A program made the position numbers and the translations under genes. From contig CATKHK010000059.1 in assembly GCA_949751835.1 (NCBI GenBank), forward strand, positions 186,001 to 250,000: a stretch of DNA of 64,000 nucleotides, read 5' to 3'. The notes beneath the pieces were generated by a model. It was not told the DNA's origin and did not search any database. It was given only the letters and a program-made list of their open reading frames with translations. Position 1 is the stretch's first letter. Every line of letters begins with the position of its first letter. This stretch comes from Blepharisma japonicum (taxonomy: Eukaryota; Ciliophora; Heterotrichea; Heterotrichida; Blepharismidae). Below, piece by piece: positions 17,151 through 60,486 of the stretch.

Positions 17151-18095
17151 ATGCAAATATTTAATAAATCAACAATAAACATGACAAATTTGCTAGAAGA
17201 TGTAGGCCTTGACGATGAAAATTATATATACCTTGACAAGGACGGAATAGCTCAAAAAATGATAGAAGTAACTGTTCATTGAAATCCTATTCCAAAGCAA
17301 GTTATTTTAGTTACAGTTAATAGAAAGTATTTTCTAATCAGTGATTCATTATCCTATCTTTGCTTCCGTATTGGTGAAGCAATGGAAAAATACTCCACCT
17401 TCTCAGGGCTTACAAATCTAAGAGCGATAAACCTAATGAATAGCCAAGCACTCTTACCTAACGTAAGTCACACTTAGATTGGGACTATAGGAGATCATGT
17501 AAAAACAGGCGAGCATCTTACATGCGATATTGCCTCTAACGACATATGGCTTGACATCCACTTTGACTGCAGCTTAATCCAGCTAATTATTTCCTTTGAA
17601 ATCAAGGTTAATTTTAACATCACCATAGAAACACTTCAATATTCCTTAGTAGAAATTATTAACAAAGTTTTAAATACCAAAAATGTCCCTCTAGAATATG
17701 AAGAGTCTGACATAGAATTAAAAAAACTTGTTTTCGAGGATGCAAGCGAAGCCAGTCAAGATCACAAAAGAAGTTTAATGGATGTAAAGAATAAAAAAAC
17801 TTCTGATTTATACAAAAATCAACAAATAGGCGATGAGCTTGATTATTTAAACAGATATATTGTATGCATCCTAGAAAAGAGGAAGAAAAACGATATTGAG
17901 ATAGGCCATCCCAGCAATAGCTCGCATAGCTGTACTGTTAATGATACTTTTAATGACTTAGCTTGCACTTTTCCTATTAGGTCTCTAAAAGTTGAACCTA
18001 AGGTCTTGACCAATATGAATGAAGTGAAATCTCACAGTAAGGTGCAGAATGAGTCTATGAATAAGCAAAAAATGTGTAATTGCAGTGTCTTTTAA
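17151..18095 (+). CDS. Unknown protein, 309 aa, one 15-nt intron, CaaX-like end
   Basis: Joined from 17151-17462 and 17478-18095. The intron (17463-17477) contains an in-frame TAG, and one TGA (17280-17282) is read as Trp (VTVHWNPIP). An alternative start is ATG 17181. The N-terminal 150 residues look like a compact alpha/beta domain (VILVTVNRKYFLISDSLSYL; GDHVKTGEHLTCDI), possibly ubiquitin-like, but I cannot assign a family. The second half is polar and Asn/Lys-rich. It ends CNCSVF, so the last four residues CSVF fit a CaaX box and Cys-x-Cys could carry two lipids; that is inference. Stop TAA, tail to tail with the TTLL gene 67 bp away. Confidence 0.75.
17463..17477 (+). other. 15-nt intron (GTAAGTCACACTTAG)
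   Basis: GT...AG, exactly 15 nt, phase 0, ending in an in-frame TAG that would otherwise truncate the protein. Removal joins ...LLPN to IGTIGDH in the same frame. Confidence 0.85.
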
Positions 18096-18162
18096 TGTCG
18101 ATGATGTTGTTATTTATTAGTTTAGATGCCATTTAAGCTAATTATTTTGTTAATTGTGACAG

Positions 18163-20190
18163 TTAATTTTGCTTTTCCAGTCTAGTAATAACCTTTTTCC
18201 AATATGCAGGGTTTCGGAGGTTATTGGATTGCTTTCGAATATATTCAATTTGAGGGCATTTTATTTTTGGAATTTGCAAATCTTGGAACCCAGAAAGGTT
18301 AACTGAATTATCTTCTGAGTTATGACTCAATTGAACTGATTGAATTTTCAAAGGAGAGTTATAGTAGATTAACCTCTTTTTCAAGTTTTCAATAGCTTTT
18401 GACTCATTAATAAGCTCTTCGATTGTAGAATTTTGGGGTTTTCTACAAGGACTCTGGGATTTTTTGTTATTTTGAGAAGGTGCTTCAATTATAAGATTCT
18501 GCCTAACTGGGACTTCGGACTGATGAGACTTGTCTAAATGCACCATAGGAAATGAGCTCTGTAAGCCTTCATTTTTGTATGTCCTTTTAACAGGACTGTA
18601 CAGCCTATTATAAACACAAGGTGTTGTCGACCTCACTAATCCTTCAGCCATGGCTTCGCTATCAGTGTTACACATAATAATTGACATACTTCTTTGATTC
18701 TGACAATCAGCTTCTTTTTTCTGGAATCCTGATGCTTTTGTTCTCATAAGCTGCGATTTCGGCCTATTTAGTTCTTGAGCTTTCTCCTCTTTTTTATTAA
18801 CCTTTTTATAGCCTGCTCATTCTTCGTAGACTTGTCGTGAGGTTTCAATGACTTTTTCGTATTCTTTTGGGTTTGCAGTTGGATAAATTTTTGTGTAACC
18901 TCCTATATTATTCTGTTCCCATATATCTCTTTTCCTTTGGGCTCTTTTAATTTCATGCTTCTTAATTTCTTTTTTCTCTTGGGAGGTTGTAAAGGATCTG
19001 GTAAGTAAACTCTTTTTCCTTTTAGACTCTGCTGTTTTTCGATTGTTATAAGAAATATTCATTAAGGTAAGAGCTTGGCTGATCACTTCGAATTTTATTT
19101 TCCAATCAAGAGGGGAATCGGTGGTAAAGGAAGGAGAATGATTTACTTCTAGAAGCCATGGCTTTAGAGTGCTGTCCAGCATAACGTCGAGGCCAAGGAT
19201 TTCAAAGCACATGCTGTTAGAAGGGTCATCTGGTTGGCATGCTCTGTATGTATGAGACAGCGATGGCTGGGCTGCTATTAAAGTATTCACTATCATTGTT
19301 TTTATTTCATTTCAAAGTTTTTCTGTGTTGTGGCCTAAATCTTCAAGGTATTTCATTATAGAAGTCAAGCTTCGTTTATGGCCTACACCATCATTTTCTT
19401 CATTTTCATTAAATACAAAGTTTTCATTGTTCTTATTAATTGCGTAATTTGTTAGGTGCATACATGGTTTTGCTAAATTGCTTGCGTTTGGTTGAGAATA
19501 TGCTTCTGTAGCAAATCTTCCAAGTCCTTCTTTATGCAAATAAATCCTCAAAGGATCACATCCAGCAACAAGCACATATATTCTTAAATCAAATTTGAGC
19601 CCATCTATTAAAAATGGCTGCTTTAAGTATTCTTGAACCACATATCGGTCATCAAAAGAAAAATCATCAAATTTCTTCGTCAGAAAAATTCCTCTACCTT
19701 GACAGCTTGCTTCAGGCTTTACTATAAAAACTTGATTTTTTTCTTTGCTTGAATAAAGACGAAGATCAGATAGCTCTGCAGGAACAAGCCAAGTTTTAGG
19801 ATAATAATTATAGTCTTCTGGCAGCTGCTTTCTCATCCTATTTAAATTTTTAGCAAGATGATTTTTTCTAGTGAGGGCATACATTCCTGGAAAATGGTTG
19901 ATTTTTTGATAGATTTTCATTTTTGCAAGTTTTTCAGGCTCGACTGAAGCATCTGTTCAAAAAATATCTCAATTTTCATCGTCTTCTTTTTTTGTTAATT
20001 TTCAGCCAAAAAATTTACTTGCAGTCTTTTTAACAACCTGATATTTTGTAAGTGCGACATTCATTATTACTTTTTTGCCTTTCTTTTTCGGTCTTTTTGG
20101 CATTGGATTGTCGTTTTCACTCTCCTCACTTTTGTCTGGAGACTGAGTTTTAGAGCTTTCCTCTTCATTAACTAATTGATGATCAATCAT
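18163..20190 (-). CDS. Tubulin tyrosine ligase-like polyglutamylase, TTLL6/13 type
   Basis: 675 aa when TGA is read as Trp at several points (20002-20004, 19969-19971, 19957-19959, 19312-19314, 18817-18819). The TTL domain spans about residues 65-380: WTD...MKIYQKINHFPGM near residue 91, the ATP-grasp segment VKPEASCQGRGIF near 155, GLKFDLRIYVLVAGCDPLRI near 200, MHLTNYAINK near 246 and the Mg-binding LLEVNHSPSF near 348. The order and wording match the TTLL6/TTLL13 glutamylase branch, enzymes that add glutamate side chains to tubulin in cilia. The C-terminal 290 residues are basic then disordered, where microtubule-binding regions lie in the family. The acidic/basic N-terminal 60 residues are low complexity. 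Start ATG 20190; stop TAA. Confidence 0.88.
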
Positions 20191-20236
20191 ATTACTGTAA
20201 CTTAAACCATATTAGCACAAGATTCTAATTAATATC

Positions 20237-21466
20237 TTATAACTTTTCTCTAATTTGTAAGGAATCTTTAATCGCCCTTGCGACATGCTGATAATTTCTT
20301 GAGTTTAAGCCTGCCATAGAAATTCTTCCGTTTGTAAGCATATAGCAGTGCCACTTTTTAATCATGTTTTCACATTGGGCTGGGGATAATCCTGTAAAAG
20401 AAAACATTCCTATTTGGGAAGTAATATGGGTCCAGTCCCCAGGGGTTTCTATTCTAATGAGCTCTTCTAATAACACTCTTCTCATTTGAATTATCCGTTG
20501 AGAAACTTGTTCAAGTTCACTTAGCCATATATTCTTTAAAGCTGAATCTTCTAATACTTTTGCTGCAATAAGTGCTCCATGCATAGGTGGATTGGAATAC
20601 ATAGGCCTAATTACAATTTTCAGCTGGCTTAGAACCTTGCCAGCAATTTCACTTGTCCTGCACACTATATGCAGAGCCCCAATCCTTTCTCCATATAGTC
20701 CCATATTCTTAGCAAAGCTTTGGGAAATGACACATTGAAATCCTCTGCTTATGAACATTCTAATTGCGAATGCATCTCTTTCTACACTTCCTGTGGCAAA
20801 TCCTTGGTAAGCACTATCAAAATAAGGCAGCAAATCTTTTCTTGCCATAACATCAGCAATTCTTTCCCACTGTTCAGGTGTAGGATCAACGCCTGTAGGG
20901 TTATGCGCACAAGCATGCAATAAGACTATTGATTTTTCAGGAGCATCATTCAGAGTATTTATCATACCTTCAATATCTACTCCTTTAGTTTTTGGATTCC
21001 AATAAGGATAATACTTAACTGAAATTCTTGCTCTTTCGAATATTGTAATATGGTTTCCCCAGGTAGGACGACTAATAAGGACACATGAAGGATTATAAAA
21101 CATAGACAAAAATTCTGCTCCAATTCGCAAGCTGCCGGTGCCTGAAATTGTTTGGACTGATGCGACTCTTTTTTCAAGTACTGCTGAGCTAGACTCCCCT
21201 AGTAATAATTCTTGAGCTAGCTTATTGAACTTTAAGTGTCCATCAATGCCTAGATATTCCTTATTCATAGCTGGATCAGCTAAAATTTGCTTTTCTGCTT
21301 CTTTTACTGCCCGAAATAGCAAAGGTTTTCCTTCATCTGTTCTATAAGCTCCAACTCCAAGATTAACTTTGTCAGAATGTGGGTCATTTCTAAACGCAAT
21401 TGAAGTTTGAAGAATCGCATCATCAGGCGCTAGCTTAATATGTCCAAATTTATCTGATCCTAGCAT
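20237..21466 (-). CDS. Aspartate aminotransferase (class I, PLP-dependent)
   Basis: 409 aa, the normal size. It catalyses aspartate plus 2-oxoglutarate to oxaloacetate plus glutamate. Visible family motifs: VNLGVGAYRTDEGKP near residue 35, SGTGSLRIGAEF near 110, AHNPTGVDPTPEQW near 187, DSAYQGFATG near 217, and the PLP lysine in SFAKNMGLYGERIGA near residue 252. The N-terminus (MLGSDKFGHIKLAPDDAI) begins close to the conserved core with no clear mitochondrial presequence, so a cytosolic (GOT1-like) form is likelier, though this is not decisive. All six or so Trp codons are TGG. It lies in tandem with the TTLL gene, 46 bp upstream of the TTLL start codon; stop TAA. Confidence 0.93.
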   Translation of the reverse strand: MLGSDKFGHIKLAPDDAILQTSIAFRNDPHSDKVNLGVGAYRTDEGKPLLFRAVKEAEKQILADPAMNKEYLGIDGHLKFNKLAQELLLGESSSAVLEKRVASVQTISGTGSLRIGAEFLSMFYNPSCVLISRPTWGNHITIFERARISVKYYPYWNPKTKGVDIEGMINTLNDAPEKSIVLLHACAHNPTGVDPTPEQWERIADVMARKDLLPYFDSAYQGFATGSVERDAFAIRMFISRGFQCVISQSFAKNMGLYGERIGALHIVCRTSEIAGKVLSQLKIVIRPMYSNPPMHGALIAAKVLEDSALKNIWLSELEQVSQRIIQMRRVLLEELIRIETPGDWTHITSQIGMFSFTGLSPAQCENMIKKWHCYMLTNGRISMAGLNSRNYQHVARAIKDSLQIREKL

Positions 21467-21543
21467 CTAAATTATTCATTTTTTAAAGATGTCATCAATT
21501 TTTTTATGTATAGCATAATTAATTAATAAATGAAGCTAAGAAT

Positions 21544-24500
21544 TTAATAATAAGTCCTTAAATATTTTAGCAGCTCTTCTACGGGATTGGGTGTAAAAAT
21601 CATTCTATACGCAATGATTATAAAATCTGGGGTAAGAGCAATAAACGGTCCTATTAAAATCGTTATCCATACTTTTTCATTTGATAATAAATTGAAAAAT
21701 ATATATGGAGCTTCTTGCTGAAAAATATAGCCTACAGAAGGTGAATTTAAGACTATTACACAAAGATAATAAAAGGCTATACTTCCAAATCCAACAATTC
21801 TATATATATCTTACATGCTAATTTTGGTCCAGAAAAAGCTTTCTAAAAAAAGCTTTAAGGTAATAAGGTGGATTACAAGAGTAAATGATAATGTAGATGT
21901 TCAGCTAAACCCTCCGATATGGCCTTTATCATCTGTGGCTCCGGCAAGTCCATAAATAGGCACCCAATAACAGAATGCACCATGCCAGATAGCAAGGATC
22001 ACCCAAATCCAGAACCTTTTAAAGGTAAAGTATACACCTCTTTGTCCTGCAGCATAGATTAAAGGATATTTAATTGAATTTTTAGCATCAATGTCTTGCT
22101 CGAAAACATAAGTTACCATGCAAGGTCAACTGGTTCATAACGCATTGTAAAGCATAGGAAGTCAATCTAGCCAGTAGATTTGTCCGCTAAATCCATTGAA
22201 AAACGCAAATCATATTTCAGTAAACACAACTACAATGTTTTTATAAAAATAATAACAAATAAACCAAGATATTCTTCTATATGCCAGTCTTCCATGAACC
22301 AGCAAAAGCCTTCCTAAATACCTAAACTGAGAAAACGAGAAATCAGCTGCTTGTACAGCTTGTGTACCTTCAAGCCCCGCAATACCTACTCCTATGTGAG
22401 CTTCTTGGATCATACTTACATCATTTGCTCCGTCTCCAATTGAAAGAGTAATTCAAGAGCCGTTTCTTTTTGCAAGCTGCACGACCTGCATTTTTTGTCC
22501 AGGTGATACCCTGCAGCAAATGCAAGAAGCTGAAATATAGCCCATTTTAAAAAATAAAAGCTGCAATTTGCCAGACTTATCGCCAAAAACATACGCCAAT
22601 GTGCTTCCATTTATAACGAGTGCTATCTTCTTTTTAACATTTTTCTTAATATCGTCAAGTTCAGTAAAGGTAAGATGCTCTATCCCAAAAATTTGGTTCT
22701 TTTCCTTGAGCTTATTTGAAATTTCTTCAAAAGAACTTGATGAGAGCTCAATTAGTTCCATATCTTGCTGTATTAAGTTGCAGGATTTGCCAATTTCGAC
22801 AGCAGTTTCTTCTTTATCGCCTGTCAGGATTCATACTCTGATATCAGCTCGCATTAATAATTCTATTGTTGAAGGAACCCCATCTTGAAGCCTATCCTCG
22901 ATTGCAGAGCACCCAACAATTTCTAGGTTTTTTTCAAGCTGGGCGGCATGACGATCTAGTCTCTCTTCTTTATCTTTTGCATTGCTCAATTGTATGTCTT
23001 GTCAGTCGTAAAACCAAGGCTCAAATTCTTGCTCTGGAATTTCTCTTTGGGCCATCACCAGAGTCCTTAACCCTTCTACTGCAAAATCATATAAATGTTT
23101 TTCATAAATTTCTCTTAAATACGTCTCTTTCAGTAGTCCTAACATAATGGAATCAGCTCCTTTCACCATAAGTAGCAGCTTTTTGGTTTGAGGATGCCTG
23201 GTGATCACTGACATTCTTTTCCTTTCGCTGCTAAATGGAACTTCTACTAAAATATCCCACACTTCAGTTGTCCCATTCTCATAAGCTAAATACACTTTTC
23301 CATCATTTCTGTCATAGAATTTTATCCCTATAAATGAAGAGCATTCTACAAGGGCAAGCTCATCAGGCGATGCTGCTTGATAATGGATTTCGCCATTTGC
23401 TTTATCTTTAGCTGGGAATACAGAGTGACAGACTGCAAGAAGTTTAAAGAAATCGCTAACAACTTTATGCTCTTTGTGCTCTTTATCTGCTAAAATTAAG
23501 GTCGGACGAGAATCAAGCTGGCCGAACTTGCTTCCTGTGTTTCCATAAACTACACCATTGATAGAGCATTTTCTGAATTCCATGATGTTGCATGTAAGTG
23601 TTCCTGTTTTGTCACTAAACACAAATTCAACTTGTCCTAGTTCTTCTACTAAATCTGACGATCGACAGTTTGCAGGTTTATCGTTTGTTTCGTAATACAT
23701 TTCAAGGTCTTGATTAATCAAATAAGCAAGAAGCAACTTTATCACTTCGAGAGCAACATACAGAGAAATAGGAATCAAATGTGAATAAGCAACCCAATAT
23801 GTCAGAATTTGAATAAAAAATGCAGACCCACTTGACGAATTGCTTTGATGCAGATATTCATGCTTTTCAAGATTTTCACTGTTCCAAGTCATACTTAGCC
23901 CTGCAAATAAAACACAAATTCCAATTTGGAATGCAAAAACTGTATATAAAATTCTGTTCATTTTCCTCAAAACATTACTAACTTTGCTTGGAGCTTTTTT
24001 GCTGTTAAGCATGATTTTTGTATCATGGCCTGTATATACAGCAATTCCGTATATATATTCGACGTTTTTTAGCACACATCCTCTCATTAGAAGCTGCTTC
24101 ATACTCATTGGTTCTCATTCTTGAGCAGTTAATTTTATGTTGCAATTTCATTTTACCATTGAAATGTTGGGCTGGTCGCACCAAATTTCACAGGAAAGGG
24201 AGGAAATGTCTGATTGGGATTGACATATTTTAGTGCTTTCAAGCGCAACTCTTTCTTTTAAGTTTGTTTCTCCGTCTAGATTCATTGTGTTTACAAAAGC
24301 TAACCCATTTGGATCGCTAGAAGAAATAAACACTAAATCGGCTGGGAAAGTCTCCCCATCCTTAATTTGTAAAATATCGCCGACTTTTACATCTTTACAA
24401 TGGGCATTTTCAAATTTGTTATATTTTCTGTTTAAAATATGAGTCTCCATATTATTTACTGCATTGTCTTGCTTATGCCTAAAATAATCTTCATAAGCCT

Positions 24501-24888
24501 CTTTTATCATAGTAAATACAAGAACTGCTGCAAAAGTAGCACCAGTTGAAAAAGCATTTTTTGGGGAGAATGGCATTGCCGATAAGATAGAAATAATTAA
24601 GAAATATATATTCGCTACCCTCCTGAATTGTCATAGTAAGCTTTTAGGTGCTCATGTAATGATTGAGTATTTTGAAGTTCGCACTTTATTTGAGGGGAAA
24701 ATTTCATTTTGTTCAATTGAATTAACTCTGATTTTTCTTGCATTATCAACGTCTGGAGATTTCAAACTAAATTTTCTTGATGGCTTTCTTTTCTCTAATT
24801 TATCTAGAAAAGTCTCTTCGTTTGGGTTATTTTCGTATTCTTCGGCCCTAAGATCAGTAATAGATGCATCGACTGGATGAACTGACAT
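21544..24888 (-). CDS. P4-ATPase (phospholipid flippase), 1,109 aa, one 15-nt intron
   Basis: Exons 24888-21815 and 21799-21544 around an intron at 21814-21800; many TGA codons are read as Trp, one (22831-22833) at the conserved Trp of [13 protein letters not shown]. Signature elements in order: [18 protein letters not shown] near residue 80, the A-domain motif DGETNLK near 207, [15 protein letters not shown] just before the P-domain, the phosphorylation site FSDKTGTLT near 428, nucleotide-binding [15 protein letters not shown] near 690, [19 protein letters not shown] near 820, then the C-terminal membrane segments. The PISL motif and DGETNLK place it in the P4 lipid-flipping subfamily rather than cation pumps. 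The last exon encodes the final two membrane helices and a short tail ([16 protein letters not shown]). Stop TAA. A second, divergent P4-ATPase starts at 61752. Confidence 0.9.
21800..21814 (-). other. 15-nt intron (GTAAGATATATATAG)
   Basis: On the minus strand an in-frame TAA inside the intron would stop translation before the last membrane helices. Removing exactly 15 nt (phase 2, AT|A) restores a hydrophobic frame beginning [17 protein letters not shown]. Confidence 0.85.
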
Positions 24889-25163
24889 TATGTGATTTAT
24901 AAGTTAATAAGTTTTTATGGTTTTTTATTTTGGTATCTTATAGTAAAAGAGAGTATCTAATAAAAATATAAAATACAAATTTTTATTTAATTATCCTTAT
25001 AACTGTTATCAATAAAATAAGTCTAATAAAATTAAGAATTATTAAAATCGCTTGCATATAGCAAAACAAAAAATATTATAATAAGAAGTTTTTGATAACT
25101 TTAATAGTCATTTATATATTTATTAAGCATTTTTATTCCAATTTAAAGGTAGGAATAAGAATA

Positions 25164-28100
25164 TTATTGTTGAGCATTTTTCTTTGCTTGCTGAAGTACT
25201 GGTTGAAGGTTTGTCATAGAGCTTGTGCCTGCTTTTTTGCTTAGGGAAGGCTCTCCCAACTTCCTCAGAATTTCGTTTTTCTTTTGAAGGGTTTCAATAT
25301 CCTCTGTATAAGGTGACAGAACAGAAGTTTGAACTAATATTTGACTTGATATTGCTCTATTAAGTAGTCTAATCGATTCTCCTGGCCTATATCTGACATC
25401 TTGCTTCATTTCATTTTGCTTATTAATTGCATTAAGCCTAATTCTATTCATTTCTCCTCCAACTCGCTCATGAACATTGGAAATCGGAAGACCTCCATTA
25501 TTGTAGCCTAAGATTGGTCGTCGTTTTTTTAGCTGGTTCATTGCATTTATTGCTTTGTCCATAGAGAGTGGAACTTCAGTTTTTAGAGATGATTTTGTAG
25601 CTCCTAGTTTGGAAATTGCTGCTAAGTTTGTATTGGATTGAGTAGCTGATAGTTTCCTGGACTGTTTCATTTCTTCTTCCTCTTTGCTTGCTTTATTTTT
25701 GCTGCTTCTTTTCATGGAAGACATAAGAGCTTTTTCATTTTTAAGGCCTCTTGATTCCAAAGTCAATTTTCTATTTATGTCTTCGAAATTTATATCCCTT
25801 GGTGGCCTTTTTATATTTTGTGGCAGTTTTTTACTAGCCTGCTGCTTCGGATCTGTAATTTCTTTGAATCTTTTTTCATCTTCTTCGTCTAAAAGTTTTT
25901 TCAAATTCGCTGTAGACCCAACGTATTTTTTCTGTGTAAGCTGCGGTTTTTCATTTATTTCTTCTAAATCGTCATCTTGGTACTCATCGCTGAAGAAGTT
26001 TCCTTGGCTCACACTTCCTTGGAGTTTTTTATTTCCTGCTTGAGGTCTTGCTTTTGGTTTTTTCCCTTTAACTCTGCGGGTTTTTCTAGTAGTTTGGACT
26101 GGTGTAGGCCCTACTGGTAATGTTTTAGGATCTATATCAACTTTTTCATCAATTAGTGATAAGACTTCTATCACTTTCTGGATATCAGCTTGACGCTTGG
26201 CTTCCCAGTCAAAAGGAAAATACCATTTTTTAGGCAGTTCAGGGGAATTAAGATTGATTAATCCCCAAGGTTCACCTTCTCTGTTTCATATTTTTACAGT
26301 TTTATCCCCAGAACAAGAAAGTAGTCCTTTTGGATCAATTATTAATTTCAGACAGGTAACAGGCTCGTTGTGAGCTTTCCATTCTCTTGCTAACAAATCA
26401 ACTTCTGGATTGACTAATTCAGGAGGTTGCATTGTTTCTGCTTCTTTGATCCAAAATTTTACATCTGATTCTGCGTTTTTTTCATCTTTTCTTCGAGGGT
26501 TATAGCTCGGCTTGTCTCTTTCTGATCTTTCCAAAGGAATAATTCTATATCTTGCAATAACCGTCTCTAGTGACCATATCTTTATATAGCCTTTATTATC
26601 TCCCATATATAAATAGCATCTTTTTTTAACTTCTTCATTGCTAGGATCCTCAATAATTTCTGCATTTTTTTCTTCAACCCATTCAGTATCGCTATCCACA
26701 TCTTGATCTGATGACGAATGTGAACTGTCTCTAGGAGATCCTATGTGAGATGAAGGCAACCGATTCCCACTTATGCTTGTTCTCTCTATTTCTTTTGTCT
26801 TTGGCGCTGACACTGGAGGTAAGGAACTCGGATTTCCAGGAGTTTTAAGTCTTTCTTCAGGCTGCCCTTTTTTCGGAACTTTAAAATGCTTTTTTCTTTT
26901 ATATCGCTGCATGCCTTGTGCTCTTTCTTGGACACTAACAAACACGCTTGCAGGTGTTTTAGTATCACGACAGTTACCCCAGGAGCGGTTTATGACTTTC
27001 ATAAAGCACTGATAGCGCATTTTGCCAGTATGAGGCCTGACAGCCCAAAATCTGATTGTATTGTCACAAGATGCAGTCACCATAATAGGATATGGTTCAA
27101 TAAACACAATTGAGGTGATCTCTTTGGTGTGCCCAATGCAGGCGGCTTCAAGCTTTCCCATCTCAAAATCCCACACGGCCACAATACCATTGCTAGACCC
27201 AGATGCAAGCAGAGAAAGATGGGAAGAATAAGTCAGACAAGTAATATCCGATCCTTGATGGCCACCTGTCATGACTCTTAACAAGGAAGATTCTTCAAGA
27301 CTTTGCATATCATAAACACGAATTGTCGAATCCCAGCTTGATGCGATTAGAATTTTGTCTTCCATACAGAAGCAGAGGCTGGAGATCTCTGAATTTCAGT
27401 CGTCTCCTGAAAATAACTTGTGGCCTTCTCCAGCTTGCTCACTTTCAGTTTTTTCAGGGATTTTTTTTGCTTTAGATTTTGATTTGGGGGAAGAAATTTT
27501 ACTTGCTGGCTGTGGGTTTTCTTCAGTTTCTGAAGTGTTTAGATTCTTGTGCTCTTCAGTGTCTCCTTGGATAACTTTCATTAAAGCCCCATTAGAAAAG
27601 TTGTAAGCTCTAACTGAGCCTGAGTTATCTCCTACAATGAAAATCCTATGCCTGTGGTCTAGAGAAAATGCTGTGAGTTCCGATTCAGTTTTAGGGTCTT
27701 GGACTTCTGTATATATTTTTTTTAATTTTCCTGTAATTGAGTCATAAATTCTTATATCGTATTTTGTGACCACTACAAACTGTAAATAATATGAGTTAAA
27801 ATCTGCATAAACAGGAGAAACATCTTTACTATTGGTTTTGATGGCTGATTCTTTATGAAGTTCATACCATATAAGTCTTCTTCCTGCTACTACAAATTTA
27901 TCATGTTTTGTTACAGTTAGCAATTTCGCGACTTCTATTTTTCCTCTATCATGGCTAATAATCTGTAGGCATAAAAACTCTCTTACATCTCATAGCCTCA
28001 CATTCCCTTTTTCATCAACACTAACGCAAACTGGCCTTCCTCTAAAAAACTTGCAAGAAACAACAGGGCAGTTGTGTCCTTCTAGCTTTCCTGTGTAGCA

Positions 28101-38904: not shown

Positions 38905-39255
38905 ATGAATTATTTAGAAATAGGGAAAAGAGAAGTATTTTTTATCTAGCTTTATAAATTTCGAGCAGAAAAATCACTGAATTTTGTTCCAGACCCACCT
39001 AATCCTGTAATTGAATCTCCACAATTTGAAAATGATTATCCTACAAAGATACTGGAGCTTGAATCAGAAATTAAGCGCTTGAATGAAGAAAATCTACGAT
39101 TGAGAGCTCAACTAGCAGAGAAAAACCAGCCAGATTTAAGAATTGAGCTTAAAGATCCTCAAGAATTTTTAAAAGAAGAAAAAGTATTCTACGAAAATAT
39201 TATAAAGGAGCTTTCTCGAGAAATAGTAAAGCTAACTCCTCCTAGAAGGAAATAG
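38905..39255 (+). CDS. Small coiled-coil protein, 111 aa, 10-codon first exon
   Basis: Joined from 38905-38934 and 38950-39255 across a 15-nt intron whose last codon is an in-frame TAG. The product begins MNYLEIGKRE|LYKFRAEKSL, has a Pro-rich stretch (FVPDPPNPVIESP), then a leucine-heptad coiled coil (KILELESEIKRLNEENLRLR) and a second helix near the end. The exon 2 frame is open for 101 codons with clear coding composition compared with its flanks, but has no internal ATG until the intron is removed, so standard gene finding misses it. Function unknown. Stop TAG. It lies between CDC5L (start 38766, divergent) and NAXD (convergent). Confidence 0.78.
38935..38949 (+). other. 15-nt intron (GTATTTTTTATCTAG)
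   Basis: Phase 0, GT...AG, with an in-frame TAG at its 3' end. Removing it links the only nearby ATG to the 101-codon coiled-coil frame. Confidence 0.8.
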
Positions 39256-49875: not shown

Positions 49876-49911
49876 GTGATAAACTATGTAAATTACTCTA
49901 TAAACATCTTT

Positions 49912-50229
49912 TTAAAAAGCCTTGTTTATTTTCTTTTCAAGTTCTTCGCAATATCTTCTCATGAAATTGATTTGTTTTGCAAGCTTATCAACATTTTGTA
50001 GGTTCTCTTCTAATGTTTCACATTTTAAAATAAAGTCTTTTGTCATATCAACTGTGCTGTCTGATTTTGTAGTAATATTGCATAAATGCGATGCATATAG
50101 AGACATTAGATTCATTGTAGTTTCAGCCGCTTCTCTAAAATCAATTGCTAACGTATTAACTAAATTTTCAATTTCATCTGGAATTGTCTGCTGCAATGTT
50201 TCGAGTTCATCAATATCAACAAAAGACAT
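49912..50229 (-). CDS. Small helical protein, 105 aa, BORC/BLOC-subunit-like
   Basis: ATG 50229 to TAA 49912. An all-helical acidic protein: ELETLQQTIPDEIENLVNTL, then a helix with the pattern TVDMTKDFILKCETLEENL and a final amphipathic helix (QINFMRRYCEELEKKI). Size and the alternating hydrophobic pattern resemble BORC/BLOC-1 subunits (BORCS6-like), small helical proteins that act on lysosome positioning, but the match is by pattern only. No TGA or Trp codon. Confidence 0.6.
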   Translation of the reverse strand: MSFVDIDELETLQQTIPDEIENLVNTLAIDFREAAETTMNLMSLYASHLCNITTKSDSTVDMTKDFILKCETLEENLQNVDKLAKQINFMRRYCEELEKKINKAF

Positions 50230-50547
50230 TTATATTTCGAAGAAATTTTGGTTTAATAATCAGAATAATGATGCCTTTATTTCGTTTGTGTTAAAGCAAA
50301 AATAACTAACTGTAAATCGAAGAAAAATATTTATTTAATGAATTAATGCAAATAAATAAGTCGATTTTATTGCTCTTTTGAATAATTATTTATCTCAATA
50401 TTTAATAAAATTTAATTAATATCTTCATAAATAATTTGCAGTATCGAAAATAATCTATTTTTGAATCAATTGAGATGTTCGCAAAGAGTTATAACTCAGA
50501 AGAAAGCTAGTGCAAATTCATATTAATTTATTTCTTATCTCACTTCA
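50230..50547. other. AT-rich spacer between divergent genes
   Basis: About 318 bp separating the starts of the small helical gene and the intron-bearing gene at 50548. It has stops in all frames and no motif I can point to; it presumably holds both promoters. Confidence 0.55.
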
Positions 50548-51216
50548 ATGCTGCCATCTCCACCTAAACGCCCATTTAAACCCTCATATAGAAGCTCAAG
50601 AAAAATATGCTATCAAAATGCATCACCCTCATGTTTACCTCATAGTGTAACTTTTATTTAGGTAACTAACACAATGCAAAAATTTATGTTCAAAATAATT
50701 TATAAAAAATTTAAACGGATTATCTTTGCCTTATGCAGAGGTATGGATTCAAACGCTTTTCAAAAAATAAGCCCTCAGCTTGCAGCACTTATCAAAAACA
50801 GAAAAAATAGTGTAGAAGTAATGTTTAGACTGTATGGAGAAACTTGGCCTCCTATGATTGTTTACAAAGCTAAGGCTGAGCATTTTAAAGTTATTGGATT
50901 TAAATATCAGGAACTGAATTTCGATTATAAATGAAATATATTATTTTCTGATACCCCAATAGAGAGAAGCAAATCATCACTGCCTCCTCTACGAAATATA
51001 AGAATATCTAGGGCGAGAACTAGAAATTATGATAGAGAAATAAACAAAAAATATCACATATGATCGAGGAATCCAGTTGCAGCATATATACGAAGAAGCC
51101 TTTCTGTTCAGTTGGAAACTAGAATTGATATTGAATACCGAAATTATTGAAAAAAATTAGGAGTTCTAGTAATAAAATGGCATGAATCAAGAAAAATTGA
51201 TCAGGGCGTTGTTTAA
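50548..51216 (+). CDS. Unknown basic protein, 217 aa, one 15-nt intron
   Basis: Exons 50548-50646 and 50662-51216; the intron (50647-50661) ends in an in-frame TAG. TGA is Trp at 50932-50934 (NFDYKWNILF), and twice more in YHIWSRNP and RNYWKKLG. The N-terminal exon is Pro/Ser/Arg-rich (MLPSPPKRPFKPSYRSSRK), followed by a helical basic segment and a compact region (VEVMFRLYGETWPPMIVYKAK). No family recognised. Without the intron, translation would appear to start only at 50674, inside the gene. TAA stop. Confidence 0.75.
50647..50661 (+). other. 15-nt intron (GTAACTTTTATTTAG)
   Basis: Phase 0, GT...AG. It ends with an in-frame TAG, and excision joins PHS to VTNTMQKF in frame. The intron is followed by a second GTAACT, a local duplication of the donor sequence. 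Confidence 0.82.
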
Positions 51217-51553
51217 TTATAAATTTAATGGGTATTTAACAAATAAAAAATGATAATGTCAGAATATATTGTATTTTTAAAAACTATCTAATAAAAATTA
51301 TTTATTAGGTTAGTTAGATTCCTTAAGAATTAATATGATTAAATCACCCACAATAATTTTTCCCTTTGAAAGGCCTCAGCTTCCTCTAAATAAAAATAAA
51401 TTTCTATCATAGATTTTAAGATCAGACCATAATCAGAAATCTTTACATAAAAATAAAATAAATTTTCAACCATTTTCTAATCAGATCAATTTGAGATTCA
51501 CATGTAAATTGATTGACCACTTGGTCATAGCTTAGGAAATTTAATATACATAA
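51217..51553. other. AT-rich spacer, no supported gene
   Basis: About 337 bp. A 25-codon open frame (ATG 51333, MIKSPTIIFPFERPQLP...) is present but too short to support. No intron, repeat or RNA gene is seen. Confidence 0.5.
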
Positions 51554-52441
51554 ATGGAGTCAAAAACTAGTGCTTTAGTAGATTTTGCATCAGGTGTCTG
51601 TGCAGGAGTCGCTAATGTCATTGTCTGCGCTCCTTTAGATACTGCCCGTACTCGACTTCAAACCCAAAATATTTATGAAAAGAAATACAATGGAATTATA
51701 TCAGCCTTAAGTAAAACGTACAGAGAAGAAGGCCTGAAAAGTTTGTATCAAGGTTTAAATGCATCATTAATTGCTTATCCCTCATCATGAAGTATTTATT
51801 TCATGCTTTATAACAGAATCCGAATTTATTTTGGCGATCTTTTTCATAGTGATACCCTAGGAAATATTGCAGGAGCATCTATAGCTGGATTAACAGGAAG
51901 CATCATTACCAATCCTTTATGATTGATAAGAGCTCGCATGCAAGTACAGAGTGGTAATAACAAATACACAAGTGTAGCAGATTCTCTTAGACTTATCATA
52001 AAAGAAGAAGGTTTTTTGGCATTATTTAATGGGTGTAAAGCATCCATGCTTGGAACCATTCATGTAGTGGTTCAGTTTCCTCTATATGAATTCACAAAAA
52101 AGCTAATAGAAAGAGAGCATGAGCCTCCTCATATCTTAGAAATGATTTTGTGCACAATTTTCCCGAAGTTCATGGCAAGTTTATGCTCTTATCCTCATGA
52201 AGTTTTAAGGGCAAGGCTTTTCATGAGCCAAAAAGACACTGATCAGATGTTCACAGGCTTATGGAGCCTTATGAAATATACATGAAAGAATGAAGGAATA
52301 AAAGGATTTTATTCAGGATTTTCAGTCAACTTGCTGAGAGTCATGCCATCCACTTTTGTTACTCTATACACTTATGAGCATGTTTCTTACTTTTTGAGTA
52401 CACATAAAATAGCAGATTACATAGGTTTAAAACGACTTTAA
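51554..52441 (+). CDS. Mitochondrial carrier (SLC25), NAD/nucleotide-carrier branch
   Basis: 295 aa, the normal carrier length, with three repeats carrying the Px(D/E)xx(K/R) signatures: APLDTARTRLQ near residue 26, NPLWLIRARMQ near 119 and YPHEVLRARLF near 214. The Trp in NPLWLIRARMQ is a TGA (51920-51922); PxW in repeat 2 is typical of the SLC25A32/33/36 and yeast NDT1 branch, which carries NAD, folate or pyrimidine nucleotides. Other Trp-TGAs are at 51788-51790 (PSSWSIYF) and 52283-52285 (KYTWKNEG). A standard-code reading splits it in four. TAA stop, 69 bp tail to tail with the LRR gene. Substrate cannot be fixed from sequence. Confidence 0.9.
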
Positions 52442-52510
52442 ATTATTTAATTTTTATTTTTTTCATTATATATAATTATTTTTATATAAAATTTACATTA
52501 ATTAAACAGT

Positions 52511-54085
52511 TTATCCCATTGATTTTACTCTATTCCTAGCATTTGTGGCAGGCTTAATCATCATGGCGGCGACTGGGTTTCCGTACCCTATTTTCATAGA
52601 GTTGGTAATTGTTTCACTATTGATTACACTTACTTTGCTTGCATTTGAAAAATTCAGGTAAGATTCATCAGCTTCGTTTATCCTTGCTGTAGTCACTAAG
52701 CTAGATCTAAGTAATTTATTAGATTTTCCTGGGGTTCTGAACTGCTTATTAGCACCTACTTTTCCTGGCCTAGGCGACGCATTATTGCTTCTTGATATTT
52801 TCTTCTTATCAGTTGATACAGGTGAGCCTGGCCTTGTATAAGTTTTTGGGGTCGAAATTTTTGACGAATTCAAAATTGCTGAGCAGCTTATTTGGCTTAA
52901 GTCAATTTTATGGGTCTCTGAGAGCTCACTAAAATATTTTTGGGGAGGTTTAGAAGGAACTGGGGTTTCATGAATATTTATAGGACATATATGAATTGGA
53001 GTTGATGGCAAACTTTGATGTTTTTTATGATGGAAACCAATATTATAGGTAGTTGGAAATAAAAAGTCGGGTAATTGGCATTGAGACAAGGAAAAAATGT
53101 CAGGAGGGTCAATATACCTGAGTTTCGGTAATAATTGAGGAATAAATTCTTGGTAGTTTGATGCCTCAGTAATATTATTCCCTTTTAAATTTAACGTTTG
53201 CAATTTCATACTAAGCGCCAAAGGCGCAACATCTTCATATTTTTCTATTAAATTATCTGCAGCATCAATGATTTTTAAATTGCTAATTTTGCATAAACCA
53301 CCAATGTTTGCGATTGAATTTTTTTTAATATAAATTTCCAATAGTGCTTTAAACCCAACAAAACCTTCAATATAGCTGAGCTGATTTTCATTAAAATTTA
53401 AATACTGCAAATTAAAAAGCGGCACTGAATTAGAAAATTCTGTCAATAAATTGTTGCTCAAATTAAGCAAAATCAAAGATTGTGGGATATTTCACTTTAT
53501 TTCTGAAATATTATTTGATGATAAATTTAAATAGAGAATTTGCGCTGGAAGTTGAGGCATAGCGAATCCTTGGGATATATTTGTAATTGATAAAGAATTA
53601 GATGATGAAGGTTTTACATATCTTGTAGCTGTGTCATTTTGAGAGATTAACAGTCTAGTTACATCAAATTTCCCAGCATCTTGCAAGCCGCTGATATTTA
53701 AGGTACTAGTATTTTCATCTTTGTGTGGATAGCTTTCTTTTATGTCAATCAATGCATCAAGGAGTTCATCGCAGTCGAATTCTTGGTTAAATTCCAATAT
53801 CTTTTTTACTACTTCATTATAGGAGTATGCCATCAGCTGCTTGGTCGCGCGGTATTTGGATGGAGAAATCAATGGGAGCTTTGATGAAATCTTTTCAAGG
53901 GATTTCACTGCTTGAAAAGCATTTACCTTTAACGATTTCGGATTGGATTTGGCAGAGTTGAATATCTCTTCAACATATAGAAATCAATCTAATCTGCTCA
54001 TGACCCAGCTTTGACTAGGCTTAAGATCTTCAGCTGAATGCTTCTGTATTTGTTTTTGTGAGTAATTCGTTTTGCTTGATTTCAT
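52511..54085 (-). CDS. Leucine-rich-repeat protein, 524 aa
   Basis: Start ATG 54085 (MKSSKTNYSQKQ), stop TAA 52511. TGA codons are Trp, for example in SRLDWFLYVEEIF and in SEIKWNIPQS. After a helical N-terminus (about residues 1-190) come SDS22-type repeats (ILYLNLSSNNI, LILLNLSNNLL, YLNFNENQL, EIYIKKNSI, IIDAADNL, TLNLKGNNI, residues about 190-320) capped by LLPKLRYIDPP. The remaining 200 residues are Ser/Pro/Lys-rich and disordered (SPRPGKVGANKQFRTPGKSN). SDS22-type LRRs are common in ciliary and centrosomal proteins, but no orthologue is assigned. Confidence 0.82.
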
Positions 54086-54320
54086 TATAAGTTATAAATT
54101 AATAAATTGGCAATGAGCTTTGAAGAACCTTATATAAACGCTTAGTTAACTCTTTAATGTTTTAACAATTATAAAAATGAAATAATGGCATTAAATCTAA
54201 ATTACAAGTGATTGAATCTTATGAGTTGCTTCTCATACGGCAAGAAGCAAGTGGATCGGCCATTCAAATTAAATCCATTATTCTGTTCATATTTTCTTGT
54301 TGACAATTATCAGTAGAGAA

Positions 54321-55661
54321 ATGAAACTGAGTGTATATCAGAAGTGGCAAATTGTTATTTTTGTTGTATCATATCTATGCATAGTTGCCAGACATGCTGG
54401 GCTTGAAGGATGATTTATGGTGAAATCAGATGTCAACGACGACTTGGGCTTTTCAACGACCTGACTAGGAGCCATGGACTCAACTTATTTATTCTGCTAT
54501 GCTACTGGCAATTACATTAGCGGAATTCTTGGAGATAAATTCCCTATACGCTTTGTGGTTCCTATGGGGATGGCTTTAGGTAGTTTCTGCTATGTTATTA
54601 TTGCTATTCTTGGATTTTCGAATTATGACAACCCTTGGCTTTTTGTAATATTATTTGGGGCAATTGGTCTTACATTATCTACTGTATGGCCAGGCACAGT
54701 ATCACTTATGGGTCGTTGGTATTCTCAAAAACACACAGGTAAAATTTTGGGCTTATGGAGCTCTAACTCCCAAGTTGGAAATATTCTGGGAGCCCAGATT
54801 GCGTCTATTATCTTATCAGTAATCAATGCTTCGTGGGAAGTTGTAACAATAACAACAACGATATTCCTAATAAGTATTGGTGTGCTATTTTTGACTCTTG
54901 CAAAAGAAAAGCCTAACCCAGAATGGCAATTAGAAGAATCTCAAGCGTTTTATGAAATAAAAGACCAAGGACCTTCAAACCAAGACAAAAGATCAATTTC
55001 ATTTCTACAAGCTTGGATGCTGCCCAGGGTAGCAATTTATGCATTTACATATGCTTGTGTAAAACTCCTTAATATGTCATTGGTCATGTGGCTGCCATTC
55101 TTTTTGGATAAACAAATACATGTCGATAAATCGTTAATTGGAACAATTGCAAACCTTTATGATATAGGAGGACTGGTAGGAGGCTTTATATTTGGCTGGG
55201 TGACAGATAAGATGGGATTCAGAGCCCCAGCTCTGTGCGTAATGCTTATTGGAGGTCTTCCAATTTTTGGAATAATTCAGCTTATGAATTCAGATATATG
55301 ATGGATTTTCTTTTTTATAACTTTCTTATTAGGCACCCTTATTGCTTCTTCAGATAATTTGATTTCAGGTGCTGTAGCAACAGATTTAGGGAGAAGTGAC
55401 AGCAGTCTGGGAAATAATGAAAATGTGATAGCAACTGTTGCTGGAATTATTGATGGGACTGGGGCTTTAGGAGCAGCCAGTGGACAGATTTTTATTGGAT
55501 ATCTAGCTGGCGTCAGTTGAACTTATGTGTTTATTTTTATGTTGGGTGTTAACTGCTGCGCTGTTATGCTTCTAATGAAATTTGCACTAAAAGACACTAA
55601 AACTATTCGCGCGGAACGAAAGAAAACTAAAAATTCAATAAGCACTAAGCAAGGTGAATAA
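54321..55661 (+). CDS. SLC37-like sugar-phosphate/organophosphate antiporter (MFS), 446 aa
   Basis: Reading TGA as Trp extends the frame to ATG 54321 (MKLSVYQKWQIVIFVVSYLC) and to TAA 55659-55661, giving the full 12-helix fold. Family features: YLCIVARHAGLEGWFMVKSDVN in the first helices, GNYISGILGDKFPIR near residue 60 (the MFS loop 2-3 motif), TLSTVWPGTVSLMGRWYSQKHTG near 115, GLWSSNSQVGNILGAQIA near 142 and GGLVGGFIFGWVTDKMGF near 285. This is the OPA/SLC37 branch (glycerol-3-phosphate or glucose-6-phosphate exchange). Trp-TGA codons lie inside membrane helices. The C-terminus is short and basic (KTKNSISTKQGE). Confidence 0.88.
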
Positions 55662-55710
55662 TATAGCTAAATTCTTTAATTAATAAATATAATTTAATAA
55701 TTTATATAAA

Positions 55711-57378
55711 TTATTTTAAATCCCTCGCAGATAATTTTTGATAAATTTTTTCAAGCTTTTCAAGTTTCTTCTTTTTCTTATCCAGCTTGCTGTGTCTTTT
55801 TACTGTTTTTTGGCTGATCTTTTGCTCTTCCTCTTCTTCTTTTGTTTTCATATCCAAAATTTTTTGCCTAATGCTTGATTCCATCGCAAGCGATTTTTTG
55901 GTTGATTTAGGGGAAAGCTGAAGCTCAGATATTGATTTAGTTCTTGTCTTTGAATTTGACCTTGACCTCGATCTTGACCTTGATTTTGATGAAGATTTTG
56001 ACCTTTTTCTGTCTGGAGTCAAACTGCTTGTGGATTTTACTTTTTTACTTAATTTTAGTTTTGGTGACTTTGATCTTGATTTATGTTTTAATTCATGAGA
56101 ATCATCATCTTTGCTGCGTTTTTCTGCATCTGAACTAACTGATCTTTTATGCCTACTTTGGTTAAGAGATGTGTCAAGCTCTTGAAGTGTTTTTGTAAGA
56201 GGAGAAATCGGTGGTTTGTCAGGCTTTTCAGTTTTTCTTATTGAAGACTTGAATTTAGGAGATAGTGGAGGAACTGAATTTTTTCCATAAAATTTAGAAG
56301 CTAAGGATTTGACTTCTTTTTTTAGATCTTGCTGAGAATTAAAATATTTTTTAACTAAATCGCCAATCTTATTGACTGTTTCAGTTACTTTTTCAGTTAT
56401 ATTTTTCTCAATTTCATCAGTATCAATAGGACGAATTCCTTGAGCAATTTCTATTTTTTTAATTTCTTTTGCAGTGGCCACAAGAAATTGCTCTAAATCT
56501 TTCACTGCTCTTTCACAGTCAGAAATTTTACTTGTACAATCTTCAGCCAGTCTATTGCAAGTTCTTTCTGAAGCCCAAACCATTTCAGTGGCTTCTTTAA
56601 TTTCAGCATCCTTTTCCATCACTATTTTTTCAATGTAATCTTTGAAGTTTCCAAACTCTTCAAGCTTGACTCATATTTGCTTTAATTCCGGCATATCCCC
56701 TTCTGCTCCAAAACTCATTAACCCTCTAATTTCTTTATTTCTTTCTGATTTCAGTTGAAACTCATTTAATTCTTCTTCTAATCCTTTATCCCCTTCATCA
56801 GTTAATCCTTCAAAATTCTTTTTGATGCTACTTTTTCTAATTTCTGTATTATTTATTGCATGCGTAAGATAGCTCATAACTTTTTCTTCTGTTGCTTTTA
56901 AAGCAGAGTTCACATCTTTGATAAATTTTTCATAAGATTTATTTCTTTGATCTTCAGAATTTTCTGTCTTCAGAAGAACAATTTTTAGTTTTTCTTCCAA
57001 TTGAGAAATTTCTTCTTCAATATGATAGCTCCTATCTTTATTTTTGGGTCCTTCCAATCCATAATATCCGCCACCGCCATCTATTCCTTCAAGCCGAGCT
57101 TTCATTGAATTAATTTCTTCTTCTTGGGTTTCTGCATAATTCTGTTGAAGCTTCACCAGTCGTGTCAAGTTAATAATTTTTTCTTCAGCAGAATTTAGTT
57201 GTGACTGCACATTTTCTATTCTTTCACTGAAGTTTTGAGTCAATAATACAGCTTGTGAAACCCTTTCCAGCTGAACTTCTAGGAACGAAATATAGGATTG
57301 TTTGTCGATAAGATTTTCAGGGTTTTCCACTTTATGTCTTTCTCTATATTTATCCCAATATTTGGTCACTGTTGACAT
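55711..57378 (-). CDS. Coiled-coil protein with SR-rich segment, 555 aa
   Basis: One frame from ATG 57378 (MSTVTKYWDKYRERHK) to TAA 55711, with TGA as Trp near 56671 (LKQIWVKLEEF). Coiled coil covers about residues 30-350 with a Gly-rich break near 105. It is followed by an Arg/Ser-rich segment (SKSRSRSRSRSNSKTRTKS, about residues 466-484) and a Lys/Glu helix to the end. RS-rich segments recur in splicing and nuclear-speckle proteins, but the coiled-coil part has no recognised family, so the role is open. Its start codon is 12 bp head to head from the GTPase gene. Confidence 0.8.
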
Positions 57379-57390
57379 TTAAATTAATGA

Positions 57391-57900
57391 ATGAATAAAA
57401 TGGAGCACCCTACTCTTAAGCGGATCATATTTATAGGAGATTGTCAAGTTGGCAAAACTAGCATTATACATCGGTACCAGCAGCATACTTTTTCTGAACC
57501 TTATGTCCCTACATATGGGCTTGATTTTTATTCTTTAGGAATAGAAAGAAATGAAGAGATCATTCATTTGCAAATTTGAGACTCTTCGGGATCTCCAAGA
57601 TTTATTAATCAGATTAAAAATTATATGAGCAATTCAGAAATTATTGTCGTTGTTTATGATATACAAAATCGCCAGAGCTTTGAAAATACTGTATTTTGGA
57701 TCGAAAAACAAATTGATAGAAATATGCAGTATAAATTGTTTATTGTTGGAAATAAAAGTGATCCTGGAGCACAAGAAAGAGTATTTTGAGAAGAAGGCTC
57801 TATTCGTGCGAAGCAGTATAATGCTTTTTTTATGGAGGTGAGCTCTAAGTCGGGAGAAAATATTAATCATCTTTTTCAATGTCTCGCTTTTAATGTATAA
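57391..57900 (+). CDS. Rab-like small GTPase, 169 aa, no prenylation motif
   Basis: G-motifs: P-loop IFIGDCQVGKTS near residue 12, switch I Thr in YVPTYGLDF near 43, the W-D-x-x-G box LQIWDSSGSPRF near 60 (its Trp is TGA 57577-57579; the usual Gln after Gly is Ser), NKSD (VGNKSD) near 123 and the SSKSG box near 152. The order matches Rab/Rab6-type Ras-superfamily proteins. The protein stops at ...FQCLAFNV with no C-terminal CC, CxC or CaaX, so it lacks the lipid anchor expected of a Rab, and loss of the catalytic Gln suggests slow GTP hydrolysis. Either a real divergent GTPase (RJL/Rab-like) or a gene whose end is incomplete. Start could also be ATG 57400. TAA stop. Confidence 0.85.
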
Positions 57901-57936
57901 GGCAAATCCTAACTTTTTAATAATCCTAGAATAAAA

Positions 57937-60486
57937 ATGCTTCGCTATGCAAGATGTTTGGGCCGCAGGTTTTTCAGAGACTATTCTTCGGCATCTGACA
58001 TTGAAGAAGCTATACCTCCACCAAAAGCAGACAAAATGGGTGTCGTTATAAGGCATCTCCCCAGAGGCTACTCTCAGCAATCATTATCTACCCATCTTTC
58101 GGCCCTTTTCAATTCAAATGATGTTTCCCTCTTTCCTAATATCAAAGGTGAGCCTGCATATGCAGTCGTAAAATTCGATGACCCAGTTCGCTTGGAGCAG
58201 GCTTTAAGCTTAAACAAAAGGCCCTTCCTCGGAAGAAAAATCTACCTTCAAGTAATTCCCAATTAGACAATTGAAGAATTTGTGGCGGCTAGCCCTGAAA
58301 TCGCAGGAGGATTTGACCCTCGAAAAGTGATTGCATACCATTTAAGTCCACTTATGAACGAAGAAGAAATATATAAGATGTTCTCTCAAGTAGGCGACAT
58401 CATGGGGATGCACTTGCCTAGAGACTACAATACTCCTCCAATGATGATCGATGGTGGCATTAATATCCCAGAATCATTGAAAAAATTCCATTTAAGGACA
58501 GAAAAGCAAACCGATTTTAGTGGGTTTACCTCAAGGCACACTTTAAATGATGTTAGGGTTTATATTAAAGATGAAATTTCCAACCTTCAGTACAGACTAG
58601 AAGAGCAAGATATAAGTGAAGAAGTCAAAGGAATTTTTGAAGACATGTATGACCTTTGGGACTATATTCGAGCTGTCAAAGACTCTCTACACACAAACGC
58701 ATCAGATATGGAAAAAGAAATTGAGGAAAAATTCAATAATTTGTTGGGGAAAAAGGCTTCAGCCAGTCTAAGAAATGAATTGCTTGACATTTTGATGATG
58801 ATGAAACTTGACTCTAAAAAATTTATTGACTATTGGTTTATGACTAGAGGGTATGTGCATATCACATATGCCACAAGAAAACAAGCAGAAAGAGCCATTT
58901 ATTTTGGAGCTGTGGCCAGACCAGAAGGTCGCAATCTAGAAGTAGCTTTTGATAGAGGAGTTCCTGGATATTTTTACTGTGATAAACTCGTAGGAGAAGC
59001 ATTTTTCCAAGAATTCACTAAACAGAAAGATACAGAGAGAAAAGATATGCAAAGAACCTTAATTTCTCAAAAGCACCATGAAACAGCATTCAAAGACATT
59101 TTTTATAAAAAAATTGCTCAACAAACCCACTATTATGGGAGTGACGAAGAAAGAGATCCAGTTTTACAAAAAATTGTAGACAGCTATGAAGATTCAAATG
59201 AAATAAGAGAAGCTATTGATCATATTTACCCATATGGTGCAAACGAAAGAGAAGAAAAAACTAAATTTAGCAGCCCTGTAACTGATCTTGCATCTTCTGA
59301 TGACGAAATTCTTAAATTGCCTGAAGAGACAGAATATTTTGAAGATCAAAGCAGAGGAAGGCTTAATGATCCAAACCATCCTTACACTAAAAGGCTTATG
59401 GATAAATACCTTATTAATAATAGCAGCTTGCCAAAAACCACTGATGAAATTAATATGATGAGGATAAGCCCTGACTTTTTTGGCCCAAGAAAAATTCCTC
59501 CAAAGTCTGTCTGGGCAAATTTATCTGAGAAAGAAGAATTCGGAACTAGGATAATGGATATCGAACAATTCTTCCACGAAGCAATACCAAGTGAACTGAA
59601 ATTATCTCCTGAGCTCCTCACGAAAGCAAGATTTAGCGATTATCCAGAAGTCCGATATGTCTATAAGAGACCATTTAACTACTCAGATATGCCTGCTCCT
59701 AAAATGTCATCAGACACAGCTAGTAGATCTGCAGTTAAAGAAGAAATGATGACCTTTTTAAGAAGCTTGACCAGTGAGAATGCTCCTTCTGAAAAAACCC
59801 CTGAACCTCGCAACTTGTTTGGAGAAGAAGAAAATAAATTATTTAACCAAGAAACATGCAAACAACTAAGTATCCACACCGATTCTGATGAAGAAGAAAA
59901 ATTCCAAGCATGGATTAAAACAAACGTAGTTTCAGATACAAACACAAAGGACATAAGAGTGCAAATAGCACAAAATTATATGGAAATTGAAGGGTTTTTG
60001 GCAGAAATCGTTACGAAAAGTGACGTTGCCTATACAAAAAGATATATTTATGAAGGTGACGACGTGGAGGAGCATGTTAAAAATGTCAAAGAAAAATTCC
60101 CTGAGTTAGATATTACACATGCCAAGGACAAATTTGACCAGAATGTCGTCTTATTAAAATATGAGAAAAAATTCAAATTAAATCTAGACGAGGTTGAAAA
60201 AATGCACAGAAAATATTTCCAGCAGGTAAAAAACAACCCTGATGAGCTAGAGATTGATGAAGAAGATGAAGAACTTGTGCAAAAATTCAATAACATTGAA
60301 ATGAATACAGTGGATATTTGCAATGACTTGATGAATCAAATTTATGAAAAGGCATGCAGAGAACATATGGCAAGTGAGTACAATATGGAAGATCTTGATA
60401 AATGGGGCTCAATAATTAAGGACTTAAAAGAGCATGCAGAGAAATTGGATGCAGAAACATTTGTGGAGTTTTTGAGAAATAGATAA
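57937..60486 (+). CDS. Mitochondrial RRM protein with split RNA-recognition motif, 844 aa
   Basis: Joined from 57937-58251 and 58267-60486 across a 15-nt intron; the upstream frame alone would end after 109 codons. The N-terminus (MLRYARCLGRRFFRDYSS) is a good mitochondrial presequence. RRM1 covers about residues 34-105 (GVVIRHLPRGYSQQSL; PAYAVVKFDDPVRLEQAL). RRM2 seems split: its first half is KVIAYHLSPLMNEEEIYKMF (about 124-143), its second half GYVHITYATRKQAERAIYFG (about 300-319), with roughly 140 helical residues between. The rest is acidic/helical (EELVQKFNNIEMNTVDICN) with no known domain. A mitochondrial RNA or ribosome factor is inferred, not shown. Trp are TGG; TAA stop. Confidence 0.82.
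58252..58266 (+). other. 15-nt intron (GTAATTCCCAATTAG)
   Basis: Phase 0, GT...AG, ending in an in-frame TAG. Removal links the RRM1 end (KIYLQ) to TIEEFVAASPEI without changing frame. Confidence 0.88.

Follow-up and report, generated by a model that had tools for sequence, protein, structure and literature searches.

Five 15-nt stretches in the window (the whole 64,000-nt stretch of DNA that was analysed) are, on the evidence of sequence comparison, very probably real spliceosomal introns of the tiny heterotrich kind, a phenomenon that has already been published. The original prediction had described five stretches of this length that begin with GTA, end with TAG and hold an in-frame stop codon, and these were found where it had placed them. 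As it had also proposed, removal of the stretch restores a longer frame, in that two open frames are joined at each of the five sites. The five, with a sixth from the site 1 gene, are as follows.

17463-17477, + strand: site 1, predicted 15-nt intron GTAAGTCACACTTAG, phase 0, in-frame stop TAG
21800-21814, − strand: site 2, predicted 15-nt intron GTAAGATATATATAG, phase 2, in-frame stop TAA
38935-38949, + strand: site 3, predicted 15-nt intron GTATTTTTTATCTAG, phase 0, in-frame stop TAG
50647-50661, + strand: site 4, predicted 15-nt intron GTAACTTTTATTTAG, phase 0, in-frame stop TAG
58252-58266, + strand: site 5, predicted 15-nt intron GTAATTCCCAATTAG, phase 0, in-frame stop TAG
17327-17341, + strand: sixth predicted 15-nt intron GTATTTTCTAATCAG, phase 2, no in-frame stop; in the site 1 gene

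GT-AG ends and an A at position 10 are present at all five sites (5/5), and the in-frame stop is TAG at the four phase 0 sites and TAA at 21800, where the phase is 2. The interpretation that these are spliceosomal introns is supported by this A, by the recovery of all five with a gene finder, and by paralogues at sites 1, 2 and 4. The original list held up for its five members; it had missed the stop-free 17327-17341, and 16-nt introns also occur in the genome.

We have little doubt that the five are ordinary tiny introns of the heterotrich type, in what appears to be a macronuclear genome from Blepharisma or a close relative, and that their stops are not a separate feature. Such an intron would be almost wholly signal: it usually begins with GUAA, carries the branch-point A at position 10, and finishes with UAG or, in some cases, CAG or AAG. 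Pairing of U2 snRNA at the branch point and lariat formation on A10 would be expected from work on Stentor and from the conserved U2 snRNA here (three places above the Rfam cut-off, with GTAGTA in the one copy read). Other introns, in which neither splice signal gives a stop, would coexist with these, namely most phase 1 introns, phase 0 introns ending in CAG or AAG, and phase 2 introns starting with GUAU.

Paralogues of the site 1 and site 2 genes

17181-18095, + strand: site 1 gene with two predicted introns, 294 aa; one of five family loci, function unassigned
21544-24888, − strand: site 2 gene, P4-ATPase (phospholipid flippase), 1109 aa after intron removal

The site 1 protein matched no Pfam family above the cut-off. 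It gave 7 matches at five loci in the genome, and all five loci were aligned (the window and C2, C43, C3 and C10, which are contigs of the same genome). At the first intron position (17327-17341), the insert was found to be 15 nt and stop-free in the window and C2, 15 nt with TAA in C43 and C3, and absent from C10. At the second position, it was 15 nt with TAG in the window and C10, 15 nt and stop-free in C2, and 16 nt in C43 and C3, where the frame shifts by one at the insert. This variation at the same positions, in presence or absence, in stop or no stop, and between 15 and 16 nt, is strong evidence that the inserts are introns. Because the family varies in length, stop and presence, there is no rule of a 15-nt length combined with a stop, and the length of exactly 15 nt that had been claimed for these introns does not hold at the position homologous to site 1 in two of the four paralogues, which have 16-nt introns there.

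When the flippase was compared with the PDB by phmmer, the best chain was 6k7g_A (E 4.6e-232), with residues 41-1086 aligned as one continuous stretch; in the last printed block, the query and the match line cross the site 2 junction, and the partner line is incomplete there. The genome holds 95 matches to the flippase, of varying strength and including the gene itself. In the best 3 other matches of the 95, the site 2 position has the insert GTAATTTTTATTTAG on C50 and no insert on C8 and C48. Among the flippase matches listed, TAA or TAG occurs inside only in the two intron-bearing copies.

These comparisons bear on the view that the stretches are not introns and belong instead to broken genes or to genes whose stops undergo readthrough. 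Stop codon reassignment occurs in ciliates, and UGA is reassigned here, but we regard this view as very improbable because readthrough would leave unexplained why the corresponding position in paralogues carries an insert of different sequence, one of 16 nt, or none at all.

A second P-type ATPase gene of the flippase kind is present in the same window, from 61752 to the window end (+ strand).

Sites 3, 4 and 5

38905-39255, + strand: site 3 gene, 111 aa, from the gene finder
50548-51216, + strand: site 4 gene, 217 aa, from the gene finder
57937-60486, + strand: site 5 gene, RRM protein, 844 aa

The frame downstream of the site 3 insert has no Met of its own, and therefore a start codon has to come from the short first exon; no paralogue of this gene was found in the genome. 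The first exon of site 4 is also short (33 codons). The single other genome match of the site 4 protein (C15:454840) is without the 15-nt insert and aligns on either side of the junction, with one single-residue gap and weakly before the junction, and this apparently intronless paralogue supports the predicted intron. In the neighbouring frame, removal of the site 4 stretch would leave a stop (GTG TAA); the frame in which a codon begins at 50647 is favoured by both the gene finder and the paralogue. At site 5, the insert follows residue 105, just past the RRM at residues 36-102 in the first exon, and no paralogue was found in the genome with residues 1-268 as the query.

Site 4 also has a feature that would suit germline DNA segments (IESs) remaining in the assembly, in that the first five letters of the insert, GTAAC, are repeated just after it. 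Blepharisma is reported to have approximately 40,000 IESs, of which approximately 70% lie within genes (PMC9942856). All five sites nevertheless share a fixed length, GT-AG ends and an A at position 10, which fit introns, and it is improbable in the extreme that the stretches are IESs.

Gene finding and chance levels

A two-strand gene finder was trained on the window and four 50-kb blocks of the same genome (264 kb), to which a fifth block was later added (314 kb). In a length-blind run on the 264 kb, in which GT...AG introns of 12-40 nt were equally likely and no further motif was used, 43 introns were called, 16 of them 15 nt and 4 of them 16 nt long, with no more than 3 at any other length. 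This run recovered three of the five sites and missed sites 2 (21800) and 4 (50647). With a motif learned from 27 introns outside the window, all five sites were recovered, as were 17327-17341 and two calls that were dismissed; the window had contributed to setting the coding model of this run and its length prior, which favours 15 and 16 nt. When flat lengths of 11-30 nt were combined with end motifs, there were 52 calls, of which 33 were 15 nt, 5 were 16 nt, and one each was 12 and 24 nt, with none of 18 or 21 nt.

Among genes lying over 400 nt away from the block ends, the model calls comprised 44 introns of 15 nt and 7 of 16 nt, with a further 8 outside these two lengths. An A was found at position 10 in 43 of the 44 (which is partly built into the model) and at position 11 in only 3 of the 7 16-nt calls, and in both of the 16-nt homologues of site 1 (2/2). 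A called intron of any length was present in 49 of 191 predicted genes, false calls included.

Chance levels were evaluated on the 314 kb with seven decoy motifs, which gave 1, 0, 0, 0, 1, 7 and 1 stop-containing 15-nt calls, versus 30 for the real motif. The real 3′ end is retained in the decoy with 7 calls and in one of the decoys with 1 call. The stop-free 15-nt calls numbered 3 to 15 with the decoys versus 14 with the real motif, and therefore, with stop-free model calls near background, only homology-supported stop-free introns are relied on here; the fraction of stop-free calls (14/44) was abandoned for the same reason.

The pattern GTA N6 A N2 TAG occurs 9 times on the two strands of the window, 5 of these being the reported sites, and by itself it is insufficient to call introns. 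The gene finder called none of the pattern matches at 21178, 43074 and 5399 as an intron. The call at 5255-5267 (13 nt) was dropped since it sits in an unsupported 101-aa model, and that at 63897-63912 (16 nt) was dropped since its gene is cut by the window end and the ATPase match continues beyond. A gene-blind count of GTA...A..TAG by length gave 40 at 15 nt, compared to 22 at 12 nt, 20 at 18 nt, 23 at 21 nt and 28 at 24 nt, yet 49 at 22 nt and 38 at 25 nt; this count was not relied on because coding periodicity shows at 22 and 25 nt. A reversed-pattern control was judged unfair because stop codons are rare in genes.

In-frame stops and intron phase

Each of the five stretches owes its stop to the splice signal itself, namely the 3′ TAG in phase 0 at four sites and the 5′ G|TAA in phase 2 at one. 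When a 15-nt intron is read through, its last three letters form a codon in phase 0 and letters 2-4 do so in phase 2, and neither is read as a codon in phase 1. Because the stops are splice-site letters, they are no independent sign of selection for decay. A search by broken frames would be expected to show only stop-containing introns. The suggestion that the noticed introns may represent just the subset under selection to trigger decay is unsupported, though not refuted, the stops being consensus splice letters.

The corresponding rival explanation is that the stretches are introns with in-frame stops kept by selection, such that unspliced RNA is subject to nonsense-mediated decay (NMD), as argued for Paramecium. 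It would agree with the description of other ciliates in PMC5014332, where short introns of 3n length are mostly depleted and stop-rich. Parts of the NMD machinery appear to be encoded in this genome, with matches to the UPF1 zinc-binding domain in two places and to UPF3 in one.

The 44 model-called 15-nt introns were used to compare splice letters between phases. Introns with and without a stop numbered 18 and 6 in phase 0, 1 and 7 in phase 1, and 11 and 1 in phase 2. GTAA was somewhat commoner where it is a stop (11/12 in phase 2 versus 25/32 in phases 0 and 1, P 0.41), in the direction that selection would give, whereas the 3′ TAG was no commoner where it is a stop (18/24 in phase 0 versus 16/20 in phases 1 and 2, Fisher P 0.73). 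Exchange of the intron sequences among positions gave an expected 30.7 stop-containing introns of 44, and 30 were observed (P 0.71), in a sample that is small and probably contaminated; this comparison is weak because false stop-free calls are probably among the 44. When the stop was altered in a copy of the sequence, 10 of 18 of the resulting stop-free introns were recovered in phase 0 and 10 of 11 in phase 2. Selection for decay is also disfavoured by the identity of all five stops with consensus splice letters and by the existence of homology-supported stop-free 15-nt introns, and we consider it unlikely.

The splice signals of 15-nt introns give stops in two of three phases, and therefore stop content is no sign of selection for decay unless phase is controlled; gene families such as the five-locus family of site 1 permit such control. 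A wider reading, which we regard as plausible without leaning towards it, is that the main intron class of heterotrichs is 3n with stops that are a mere by-product of splice letters and phase, that, in contrast to Paramecium, stops are not under selection, and that splicing accuracy rather than decay carries quality control. If this were true, a retained stop-free 15-nt intron would add five residues to the protein. In the titles and opening lines of abstracts of listed papers that concern stops or decay for short introns or those of heterotrichs, nothing on selection for stops in heterotrich introns was found.

The two UPF1 zinc-binding domain matches are separate (C32:96935-97393 and C54:277779-278231), and there are possibly two UPF1 genes.

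Stop-free introns supported by homology

It had been anticipated that 15-nt introns without a stop would stay invisible, and the predicted intron at 17327-17341 bears this out: it ends 121 nt upstream of site 1 and had gone unnoticed. This intron and both introns of the C2 member of the site 1 family are stop-free cases backed by homology.

Other cases came from proteins elsewhere in the genome. For a DYRK-like kinase on C5, the unspliced protein has a 5-residue gap at the insert in its alignment with DYRK2, and the better-scoring DYRK3 alignment has gaps elsewhere (two alignments printed). In two of three printed alignments of an aspartic protease on C30, a gap of 6 residues falls on the insert, directly behind a DTG-like motif, and the third has no gap there; a paralogue has a different stop-free insert at the same position. 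Two cysteine-rich paralogues on C15 have one common position with different inserts, and one of them carries a further insert that is absent from the other. For a Rab-like pair on C5, the evidence goes no further than compatibility with a stop-free intron.

In the window, GTACACATAAAATAG at 52398-52412 is in phase 1, stop-free, and has an A at position 10. It lies near the end of a frame that, by its look, we take to be mitochondrial-carrier-like, and could be a hidden intron or coding sequence.

Genome traits and comparison with known systems

The expectation of a Blepharisma-like genome with UGA read as Trp was supported. TGA and TGG exchange at homologous Trp positions of four flippase copies. 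The 65,835 predicted codons include 292 TGA and 466 TGG, and the 139 genes end in TAA (129) or TAG (10), the only two ends that the model permits. Three repeats of the telomere repeat CCCTAACA gave 168 overlapping matches, compared to 0 for the reversed control. Among the matches listed, it is located within the first 421 bases of C11, C36, C47, C69, C78, C80 and C89. Further listed matches lie at the extreme end of C5 and have high coordinates on C4, C6, C7, C17 and C38. The GC content of the window is 34.3%.

Heterotrich introns are reported to be approximately 95% 15 bp long, with the remainder 16 bp (PMC11441545). Blepharisma stoltei is described as having a gene-dense somatic genome of 66% AT, with introns mostly of 15 and 16 bp and UGA for Trp (PMC9942806). 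The present genome is alike in these respects and in its telomere repeat, that of B. stoltei being a permutation of CCCTAACA; the B. stoltei assembly comprises 41 Mb in 64 contigs according to the same paper, whereas that used here comprises 45.2 Mb in 224, and the two may belong to one species.

For Stentor coeruleus, 8173 of 8806 annotated introns (92.81%) are given as 15 nt and the rest as 16 nt; introns occur in 18.14% of genes, and the branch point is almost invariably an A at position 10 or 11 (PMC9505925). The place reported for the branch point in the 15-nt introns of Stentor is that of the A10 in all five sites here, whereas an A at position 11 of the 16-nt introns, found in the 3 of 7 model calls above, is less frequent than in Stentor. 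The genetic code also differs, being given as standard for S. coeruleus. Very short introns are shared with Paramecium and other ciliates; in contrast to the 3n lengths described for these, which are mostly depleted and rich in stops (PMC5014332), the main class here is 3n, and its stops come from splice letters.

A single 2904-aa open frame without a called intron occupies 5485-14199 (− strand) of the window. On C1, at approximately 56314-59002, two neighbouring predicted genes (336 and 337 aa) share two 15-nt introns of identical sequence, which is suggestive of recent tandem duplication.
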